A DNA stretch of 64,000 nucleotides, from the NCBI GenBank assembly GCA_034440615.1, contig JAOTOM010004317.1, positions 124,001 through 188,000 of the forward strand, read 5' to 3'. Made by a program: the position numbers and the translations under genes. Below, in pieces: positions 1-58,850 of the stretch. Each line of letters starts with the position of its first letter. Positions within the stretch are counted from its first letter, which is position 1. The DNA comes from Ashinkailepas kermadecensis (taxonomy: Eukaryota; Arthropoda; Thecostraca; Neolepadidae). Under the pieces are notes generated by a model. The model ran no database searches. It was not told the origin of the DNA and worked only from the letters and a program-made list of their open reading frames with translations.

Positions 1-163
1 CAAGGCAGAAGTGCTCGATGATGTGGAATATCTCCTTGGCTTTCTCCAGAGAGCCGTAGCCGGGATCTTCAGCTATGATGAGGTCGATGTCCACATTGGC
101 GTGGATAAAGTCTCCGTCCACTGACCGGCGAACTGTGCCCTTAATGCCCATCAGGCAGTGCTC
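1..163 (-). CDS. METTL14: METTL14 coding exon 6 (continues past window edge)
   Basis: Acceptor GTCACCAG|GAGCAC; the reading EHCLMGIKGTVRRS, NVDIDLIIAEDPG and FHIIEHFCLG is the conserved METTL14 C-terminal half of the fold. The exon runs off base 1. Its first 17 bases together with the acceptor are the template for the tandem array in the preceding intron. Confidence 0.95.
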
Positions 164-3100
164 CTGGTGACACGATACCACAGATCCATCAGGCGGTGCT
201 CCTGGCGACACAATATCACCACAAACCCATCCGGCAGTGCTCCTGGTGACACCACAGACCCATCAGGCAGTGTTCCTGGCGACACTACAGACCCATCAGG
301 CAGTGTTCCTGTGACACCACAAACCCATCAGGCAGTGTTCCTGGCGACACCACAGACCCATCAGGCAGTATTCCTGGCGACACCACAGACCCATCAGGCA
401 GTGTTCCTGGTGGTGGTGGATTTGTGCTTTAGGGCGCGTCGACTGCATTGGTCATTTTGCGCCCATGGCAGTGTTCCTGGTGACACTGCAGACCCATCAG
501 GCAGTGCTCCTGGTTATTGGTTTTACGACATGTCGACCGTTGAGTCATATAGCGTCACCAATCTCTCACGCTGATTGGTCGCGGGCGAAGAGTAGCGACA
601 GGTGAGACTCGAACCCACAACCTTTTCGGTTGTGAGACGAGCATCTTACCCCTAGACCACTCGTCCCCAGACAGTGCTCCTGGCAATACGACACCACAGA
701 CCCATCAGGCAGTGCTCCTGGCGACACAACACCACAGACCCATCAGGCAGTGCTCCCGGTGACACCACCGACCCATCAGACAGTGCTCCTGGCGATACGA
801 CGCCACAGTCCCATCAGACAGTGCTCCTGGCGATACGACACCACAGTCCCATCAGGCAGTGTTCCTGGCAACACGACACCACATACCCATCAGGCAGTGC
901 TCCTGGCAACACGACACCACAGACCCATCAGACAGTGCTCTTGGCGATACGACACCACAGTCCCATCAGGCAGTGCTCCTGGTGACACCACAGACCCATC
1001 AGACAGTGATCCTGGCGATACGACACCACAGTCCCATCAGGCAGTGTTACTGGCAACACGACACCATAGACTCATCAGGCAGTGCTCCTGTCCACACCAA
1101 TGACTGGTGTAGCCCAGAAAAGGCATTGGTCACTGTACAATGACAATGCAAATTATAACGATAGGACCATCATAACACCACATGACATGTTGATCAAACC
1201 AGGTACAGTAGAGAACGCATCACAACGGCACAACGCCAACGTGTGACACACGTGAGTGCGACCGCGCCGGTCGCTACCTTGGTGCGCTGGAAGATGGCCT
1301 TCGACTCGAGGTTCTTGTTGTGGCCCGGGTTGCCGATGTTGGTCTTGATCCAGCAGATGTCCTCGCAGCGGCGGTAGCCCCAGCGGCGCAGACACTGCCG
1401 GCCCAGGTCGAGGCCGTCCGACGAGCCGCACCAGAGGAACACGAACGACCGGTGTGCGGCCACCTGGTCCAGCTGCAGACTCATGATCTGCCGACACCCG
1501 GTCACCGGGTCACCGGCCACTCAGACGGTGCCACGTCACCTCCGCCACCGGCGGCGTCTCCTGCCCGCTGTCAGTCCGGTGACGGCCAGACACATGCCCT
1601 ATATTGCACATGTATCCAGGATGGATGTGCCGGTCATCAGCATCGTCGTCGAAGCGTGTCGTGCACGCAGAAGTGTGGCAGTGGCATTCAGCAGCGTATC
1701 AGCAGTGTAACGGTATATCAGCAGTGTTGCAGTGTATGAACAGTGTAGTAGTGTATCAGCAGTGTAGCGGTATATCAGTGTAGCAATGCAGCAGTGCAAC
1801 GGTGTAGCAATGTAGCAGCAAAGTAGTAGCAGTGCAACAGTGTAGCAATGTAGCAGCAACGTAGTAGCAGTGCAACAGTGTACCAGCAGTGTAGCAGCCA
1901 GCAGTAGCGTAGCAGTAGCAGTGGCACACAGTCAGACCGCACAAACTCGCTGGCAGGCAAACTCGCAGCTCTGTGCGTCACGTGCTATCTGCCAACCCAA
2001 AATGTCCAACAGCTATCTCGAACCGCCTCGGTCTCAGCAGCACCGACAACTGCATATGTGTTCCATACGCAGCCCATATTCTCGCTATTTGTCACGAGGG
2101 GAAGTGGCGTCGGACACCACAGTATTTTCCTCGATGCTATATAACTAATGCGACTACAAGTAAAACCTAAATATTTTCAAGGCTTTTGGCACATTGTCCG
2201 TGATTTTTCCACAAGGAAATGATATCAAGTTAACAAGTCATGAGACAGTGATATTCAATGGCATTTGTATGCATGTTTCTCACGCTAAATTGCGTTGTCA
2301 TCTGAGAAATTCGCGACCTGGATTCTTCAAAGACATCTTTATTAGCTCGTTGGTCATGCTGGAAGCATTGCCACCAAGATAGCATGGGGCATGACAAATG
2401 CATCATACACGAGTGGATTTCCAACTGTAAAATGGTTATTCCCGGTGTTTGTGTATCAGTTAACTGTCATCAAGCACAAGCACACTTCTAACCTTGCGTT
2501 TCGTTGTTCATTGACATACCAGTACTGTGTGCAAGAAGCAGGACGTAGATAACAATTGGAGGTGACGCAAGGTGCATCGGTACCTACCTATACATATGCG
2601 ACATAGTGTGCTAAAATATAGTCGGGTCTTACCGGATGAATCCATTTTTTCATAATCCAGAGAGAACAAGGCAACATCTTGAAGCCTTAACCCGCTAGTA
2701 TTTAGTCATTTTTCAGGTCGCGGCTAAAACCTGAATTTAACAAATCCGCCAAATTACTCCTCGGCGAAGCCGACAATTTGTCTCCTGGTGCCCTGAACCC
2801 TACCATGGTGTTCGTGTTGAAACATCCAATTTCTGTCACTTCTTAAGCTTTGAATCAAAGTTTACATCAGAAGCTGGTGTCAAGTAAAAATTGTGAAGCA
2901 CAAATTCCACCTAGGTTTACAAGGACTCCATGTTTGCCTACCATGTTTTCAACATAAGTGATTGCACAGAAACGTTCAATATGGTACATCTACAAATCAA
3001 CCACTAATAATTACGATCTCAGCTTCAGGATTACTTTTTTAGGCTGGAGCAATGTCCAGTCATATGTCACCATTTGGCATGATTGCTTTCAGCAGGAAAT

Positions 3101-58234: not shown

Positions 58235-58328
58235 ATGAAGTGCACGGCGCTGACTCTGTTGGCCGCCCTGGCTTGCGTCCACCTGACCCGAGCTGCCATC
58301 TGGCAGCGCACCGTTCCCATCCATGTCG
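58235..58328 (+). CDS. First coding exon of a small secreted protein (rest not found)
   Basis: ATG followed by 31 codons plus one base and a strong donor G|GTGAGT. The product MKCTALTLLAALACVHLTRA is a textbook signal peptide (basic start, hydrophobic core, Ala at the cleavage region), then AIWQRTVPIHVG. The downstream intron is made of eight copies of a block that includes most of this exon and the donor. I could not find the second exon in the window, so the family is unknown. The GC-rich codon use matches the other genes. Confidence 0.7.
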
Positions 58329-58850
58329 GTGAGTGCCTGCGTCCACCTGACCCGAGGTGCCGTCTGATGGTCCACCGTTCCCATCCATGTCGGTGAGTGC
58401 CTGCGTCCACCTGACCCGAGGTGCCGTCTGGCGGTCCACCGTTCCCATCCATGTCGGTGAGTGCCTGCGTCCACCTGACCCGAGGTGCCGTCTGGCGGTC
58501 CACCGTTCCCATCCATGTCGGTGAGTGCCTGCGTCCATCTGACCCGAGCTGCCGTCTGATGGTCCACCGTTCCCATCCATGTAGGTGAGTGCCTGCGTCC
58601 ACCTGACCCGAGCTGCCGTCTGGTGGTCCACCGTTCCCATCCATGTCGGTGAGTGCCTGCGTCCACCTAACCCGAGCTGCCGTCTGGTGGTCCACCGTTC
58701 CCATCCATGTCGGTGAGTGCCTGCGTCCACCTGACCCGAGGTGCCGTCTGGCGGTCCACCGTTCCCATCCATGTCGGTGAGTGCCTGCGTCCACCTGACC
58801 CGAGGTGCCGTCTGGCGGCGCACCGTTCCCATCCATGTCGGTGAGGGAGC
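58329..58850 (+). repeat. 64-bp exon/donor-derived minisatellite
   Basis: Donor sites at 58329, 58393, 58457, 58521, 58585, 58649, 58713, 58777 and 58841, exactly 64 bases apart. Each unit carries the last 55 bases of the signal-peptide exon (TGCGTCCACCTGACCCGAGC to ATCCATGTCG) plus nine intron bases (GTGAGTGCC). Confidence 0.96.

Follow-up and report, generated by a model that had tools for sequence, protein, structure and literature searches.

Minisatellite arrays that straddle splice junctions in a 64,000-nucleotide window of a barnacle genome

Splice junctions in a stretch of barnacle DNA are found repeatedly inside minisatellites. In the window (the whole stretch of 64,000 nucleotides analysed here, from one haplotype) eight clear arrays, five at donor and three at acceptor sites, are built from a unit that joins exon bases, the splice site and some of the adjoining intron. 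Each array has 5 to 21 copies that align in the register of the junction. We consider it likely that these arrays are “mirages”, that is, minisatellites whose unit straddles a splice junction, arising as ordinary tandem duplications that survive since splicing is predicted to use the outermost copy only. The kind is already known, while its lineage and density are new as far as could be seen.

Genes and Gene Models

The junctions belong to three genes:

15293..42164, plus strand: MTMR6/8-like gene, 15 exons, 668 amino acids, assigned by homology and domains
38559-38699, plus strand: exon 14 of the MTMR gene
1..8187, minus strand: METTL14, exons 1-6 of a gene that extends past the window, assigned by homology
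58235-58328, plus strand: signal-peptide-like first exon of the third gene (ATG, hydrophobic leader, GTGAGT)

The preliminary description of this DNA had placed the arrays in three unrelated genes. Homology bears this out for MTMR and METTL14, while the third gene is read from the letters themselves. The exon numbers used there agree with the gene models built here.

The 15 joined exons of the sequence-built MTMR model encode a 668-residue protein whose reading stays open up to an in-frame stop codon. A domain scan identified the GRAM, myotubularin phosphatase and FYVE domains. A first model of 695 amino acids, which carried 27 wrong residues at exon 14 and becomes 668 amino acids when corrected, gave 78% identity over its full length to the protein of Amphibalanus amphitrite (669 amino acids; the best among the matches listed) and 88% over 64% of its length to that of Pollicipes pollicipes (the highest identity among the matches listed). 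None of the 120 matches listed was identical to the model. The annotated end of the P. pollicipes MTMR8-like protein P0030 (447 amino acids) corresponds exactly to the last residue of exon 10 here, the site of a 42-bp array; P0030 may be a gene model that has run into the donor.

Junction Arrays

For every one of the 38 junctions in MTMR and METTL14, the surrounding 36 bases were compared with up to 800 bases of adjoining intron and with 60 shuffles, and a junction was counted when its score exceeded the best of the 60 shuffles by more than 4 points. Strong tandem copies were found in the adjoining intron at 7 of the 38 junctions. The eighth clear array, at the signal-peptide-like exon, lies outside the two genes scanned. 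All nine entries of the list were also seen by TRF and by alignment of copies. Copy numbers take in the real junction copy and partial copies; bars mark the junction and scores are followed by the shuffle maximum.

22913..23256, plus strand: MTMR exon 5 donor array (exon 22748-22931), unit of 37 bp (19 exon nt and 18 intron nt from GTGAGT), 9 copies; TRF, alignment and junction score (62 versus 21)
25354..25890, plus strand: MTMR exon 8 acceptor array (exon 25887-26119), unit of 26 bp ending in TTGCAG|CGTG with only 4 exon nt, 21 copies; score 44 versus 22
35200..35474, plus strand: MTMR exon 10 donor array (exon 35095-35236), unit of 42 bp (37 exon nt and GTCAG), 7 copies; score 72 versus 22
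35930..36167, plus strand: MTMR exon 11 donor array (exon 35825-35953), unit of 36 bp (24 exon nt and 12 intron nt), 7 copies; score 53 versus 24
36469..36671, plus strand: MTMR exon 12 acceptor array (exon 36656-36782), unit of 39 bp with GCCCAG|GTTCTGGCGCGG, 5 copies; score 55 versus 24
37762..38042, plus strand: MTMR exon 13 donor array (exon 37660-37773), unit of 29 bp (12 exon nt and 17 intron nt), 10 copies; score 43 versus 23
147..1090, minus strand: METTL14 exon 6 acceptor array (exon edge 163), unit of 38 bp with GCCAG|GAGCACTGCCTG, 20 copies; score 55 versus 23
58274..58845, plus strand: signal-peptide-like exon donor array (start codon at 58235, donor predicted after 58328), unit of 64 bp (55 exon nt and 9 intron nt), 9 copies; TRF and alignment, gene model from sequence only
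16522..16590, plus strand: MTMR exon 3 donor array (exon 16387-16549), marginal, unit of 30 bp, 2.3 copies by TRF and two by alignment; score 22 versus 23

Nine junction arrays had been claimed, and eight of them are clear. The ninth, at MTMR exon 3, is marginal: its 2.3 copies did not exceed the shuffles in the junction scan. The donor of MTMR exon 8 (score 22, shuffle maximum 19) stayed under the cut and is not counted. The arrays had also been described as starting exactly at the real junction. They begin inside the exon, the overlap ranging from 4 nt at exon 8 to 55 nt at the signal-peptide exon, so that the junction itself is not their starting point; this overlap is always shorter than one unit in the alignments. 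The real splice site sits in the outermost copy. MTMR intron 11-12 carries an array at both ends, at the donor of exon 11 and at the acceptor of exon 12. The METTL14 exon 6 array is broken at two places, at 592-668 by a SINE-like insert whose head resembles tRNA-Val and near 413-466 by a short non-repeat stretch. Units measure 26 to 64 bp and their sequences are unrelated from one array to another, as had been stated; separate arrays with unrelated units on both types of junction indicate a repeated process, and on this point the earlier reading is upheld.

Four further arrays end 10-31 bases from an exon and do not contain the junction: 3553-3953 and 4165-4611 on the two sides of METTL14 exon 4, 34060-34367 at the MTMR exon 9 acceptor and 41485-41994 at the MTMR exon 15 acceptor. 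They were left out of the count because the junction scan detected no junction copies at these places.

Other Repeats in the Window

An element of some 1.9 kb seems to have split a 23-bp minisatellite in MTMR intron 14 (38866-41994) in two. Its long arms are inverted (39600-39694 paired with 41388-41482), further arms lie inside them, its ends are TGTAGGGG and GATG flanks it on both sides. In MTMR intron 4 a TE- or satellite-like repeat of 152-154 bp forms two oppositely oriented runs (20658-22177; TRF). Three SINE-like copies with a tRNA-Val- or tRNA-Pro-like head are found at 592-668 (the one in the METTL14 exon 6 array), 37320-37395 and 43620-43695. A single-exon trypsin-like gene (49832-50722; Pfam Trypsin) has a 10-bp tandem array (50716-50789; TRF) that starts one base before the last codon and its TGA, another array at the edge of a coding sequence. 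The segment 54736-56873 holds inverted, near-identical reading frames that we presume to resemble the GIY-YIG end of a Penelope-like element; frame 55860-56870, the one scanned, had no Pfam match.

Frequency of Arrays at Splice Junctions

The arrays could have no special link to junctions, some of them falling there by chance in a genome dense in minisatellites. The share of sequence lying in tandem arrays is 15% in MTMR and 34% in METTL14. The comparison of junctions with random intron positions, which the preliminary description had proposed, speaks in this window for chance: 7 of 38 junctions lie in arrays versus 173 of 700 random intronic positions in MTMR and 97 of 250 in METTL14 (30 shuffles, up to 800 bases on one side, an intervening exon allowed). 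Counted per position, junctions are no more often in arrays than random intronic positions. Likewise, array blocks dropped freely on the genes gave a mean of 4.9 junction hits, and eight or more hits came up with a probability of 0.09. Such blocks would swallow exons, while the real arrays overlap them by less than one unit. When blocks were barred from swallowing exons the mean fell to 0.84 and none of 4000 simulations reached eight. The block simulation used 22 arrays and an uncorrected start and end of exon 14, and the junction scan an uncorrected end; no array is present there.

A second count was based on founding units, every array being reduced to one unit and units wholly inside exons being excluded. 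It has the corrected exon 14 and leaves out the 152-154 bp repeats (20658-22177), the microsatellites and the arrays outside MTMR and METTL14, including that of the signal-peptide exon. The 23-bp arrays flanking the intron 14 element are counted as one, giving 21 arrays. Eight of the 21 straddle a junction, exon 3 included, versus 0.85-3.07 expected (p from 7e-7 to 0.0042, in a test that is post hoc, the window having been chosen because of the pattern). Without exon 3, seven of 20 arrays do so versus 0.81-2.91 expected (p from 7e-6 to 0.013). Placing units gene-wide gives an expected number of 0.85, matching them for G+C raises it to 1.24 and confining them to 250 bases to 2.3-3.1, hence the excess is smaller under the local and G+C-matched nulls, whose p values range from 0.0002 to 0.013. 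Nearly all of it comes from MTMR; in METTL14 (per-gene count with 22 arrays in total) one of seven arrays is on a junction versus 0.37-0.47 expected.

The two counts differ because an array spans many intronic bases through its copy number but a junction only through its founding unit. The junction excess is visible only when each array counts once, by that unit. The earlier statement that chance is not plausible thus stands for founding units and fails per position, and we regard chance placement as unlikely overall. The proposal that arrays are favoured by the transition from GC-rich exon to AT-rich intron may hold in part: G+C matching of founding units takes away some of the excess, though not all. 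What is left over nearby sequence may be due to a raised duplication rate at exon edges or to longer survival of arrays there.

Conservation and Use of the Copied Splice Sites

Selection might retain the arrays for redundant splice sites, as had been suggested, or for splicing regulation or intron length. GT or AG is indeed intact in most extra copies of the eight clear arrays (exon 3 set aside), 70 of 80, but the other dinucleotides of the same units are kept about as well (2146 of 2543; mean mid-rank of the splice dinucleotide 0.52). The copied GT/AG are preserved no better than the rest of the unit, and there is thus no sign of selection on spare sites. An early count of single bases had given better retention of splice bases (146 of 154 versus 2292 of 2607 other bases, p 0.007). 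This difference, caused by lost sites dropping out where the local alignment ended early, was gone once copies were extended to full length and counted as dinucleotides.

The inner sites would also make poor spares. A premature stop would follow from 61 of the 67 inner donor- or acceptor-like sites tested in the METTL14 array and six of the MTMR arrays. Among donor-like sites (every GTGAG, GTCAG, GTAAG or GTGAA in the array, a few of them outside the junction register) this applies to 24 of 28, counted over the arrays of exons 5, 10, 11 and 13; among acceptors it applies to 17 of 18 at exon 8, to two of the three still intact at exon 12 and to all 18 at METTL14 exon 6. Of the six other sites, four are donors, two of them from exon 10 and two from exon 11, and the remaining two are acceptors, one from exon 8 and one from exon 12. 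At exons 10 and 11 the first two inner donors could be used in frame, a point in favour of selection for spare sites; at exon 10 they would insert 14 and 28 residues. Weighing these observations, we find it quite improbable that selection of this sort maintains the arrays.

Use of 61 of the 67 inner sites would spoil the protein, from which it is predicted that the spliceosome chooses the outermost site. The MTMR model that uses the first donors and the last acceptors is open for 668 amino acids, and the A. amphitrite protein, aligned to it with exon 14 corrected, has no insertions at the array-bearing junctions. Normal splicing with outermost sites is consistent with both the open model and this protein match, and we infer that these are the sites used in the animal.

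Variation among Copies

Within the eight arrays the mean pairwise identity of copies is 0.83-0.96. Misassembly might have inflated single-copy junctions, tandem arrays being prone to copy-number errors in assemblies, but we give this very little credence since copies differ within an array to that extent and a SINE-like insert interrupts the METTL14 array. In none of the eight arrays does divergence rise or fall with distance from the exon (p from 0.10 to 0.96). Pooled over the extra copies, conservation was higher in exon-like than in intron-like columns (0.909 versus 0.846), yet five arrays went one way and three the opposite, and no difference is claimed.

At the edge of exon 10, two other barnacle proteins read GNCHKDRQDLR and the MTMR exon here reads GNCQKDREDLR. 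Copies of the exon 10 array show both states at both differing residues in mixed combinations, which suggests exchange among units. The four possible combinations of array column 16 with columns 10, 24, 26 and 29 are complete if the exon copy is counted and incomplete otherwise (six of the seven copies, the truncated seventh being omitted; these columns are not independent of each other). Recombination or conversion between the exon copy and intronic copies would explain this most simply, though recurrent mutation could also produce the four-combination pattern. No sign of faster evolution of exon-edge residues inside arrays was seen by eye in the protein alignment.

Origin and Persistence of the Arrays

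The reading of the arrays as mirages can be set out as a series of steps. A tandem duplication within an exon would alter the protein and be purged. One across a junction would leave a complete exon and splice site at its outer end and could be tolerated, the extra copies turning into intron if the outer site is used. Junction arrays likely survive because copies at the exon edge are mostly hidden from the protein. They would then expand by slippage, unequal exchange or conversion, and the exon's own copy may join in this exchange, so that the coding edge would partly co-evolve with the intronic copies.

Eight clear cases in 64 kb of an arthropod extend what was an oddity of lancelet genes and suggest a general route for change at exon edges and for intron growth. 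Lancelets are very highly polymorphic. For a barnacle, very high polymorphism is also reported in the excerpted text of PMC8270832. We put forward tentatively, as a possibility less probable than the reading of the individual arrays, that barnacle splice junctions are genome-wide hot spots of minisatellite birth, where exon edges give rise again and again to arrays that add length to introns, trade sequence with the coding edge and occasionally give in-frame protein repeats or new introns, and that this arose independently in lancelets and barnacles, both very polymorphic. By lining up many near-identical donors or acceptors, the arrays offer a natural experiment on how splice sites are chosen, and gene models may be misled by them.

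Comparison with Known Systems

No boundary arrays in a barnacle or another arthropod were found in the open-licence papers searched. The word “satellite” does not occur in the Pollicipes and Balanus improvisus genome papers, nor “tandem” in the former and “tandem repeat” in the latter, and the word “splice” is absent from a Daphnia tandem-repeat survey.

Comparable arrays have been described elsewhere. Human genes in segmental duplications have internal tandem repeats at exon-intron boundaries, with units of 30 bp on average and four copies, that differ from one recent paralogue to another and can give rise to novel introns or alternative transcripts, according to the portion of PMC2812944 at hand. 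As in that account, the barnacle minisatellites include exon-intron boundaries; unlike it, the barnacle genes are old and single, and an open protein requires the outermost site. Intron gain through internal duplication of AG/GT proto-splice sites (Rogers 1989; Zhuo 2007; Gao and Lynch 2009, as cited in the extracts of PMC3087553) also multiplies splice signals by tandem duplication within a gene. The barnacle differs in that the copies lie inside existing introns, with no new intron seen and, at exons 10 and 11, no more than a geometry that would allow inner donors to be used in frame.

The closest parallel is found in amphioxus. The sections of PMC3087553 and PMC3902484 available to us describe mirages in which an exon edge and the adjoining intron are tandemly duplicated at the 5′ or 3′ boundary in unrelated genes (Adh3, then the globins BflGb6 and BflGb9, and also troponin C and PGBD5), with units of 10-72 and 150-160 bp and concerted evolution within clusters. 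In the globin paper, to the extent covered by these sections, mirages seem not to interfere with regular splicing, are unstable in length and could explain intron gain (PMC3087553, PMC3902484). The barnacle units likewise join part of an exon, the splice site and intron, occur at donors as well as acceptors and differ by locus. The original amphioxus Adh paper is reportedly Canestro 2002. Normal splicing and length instability are reported for the amphioxus mirages, whereas the barnacle arrays are known from the sequence of one haplotype. They differ further in their host, an arthropod instead of a cephalochordate, and in their abundance, with eight clear cases in 64 kb and one intron with arrays at both ends.
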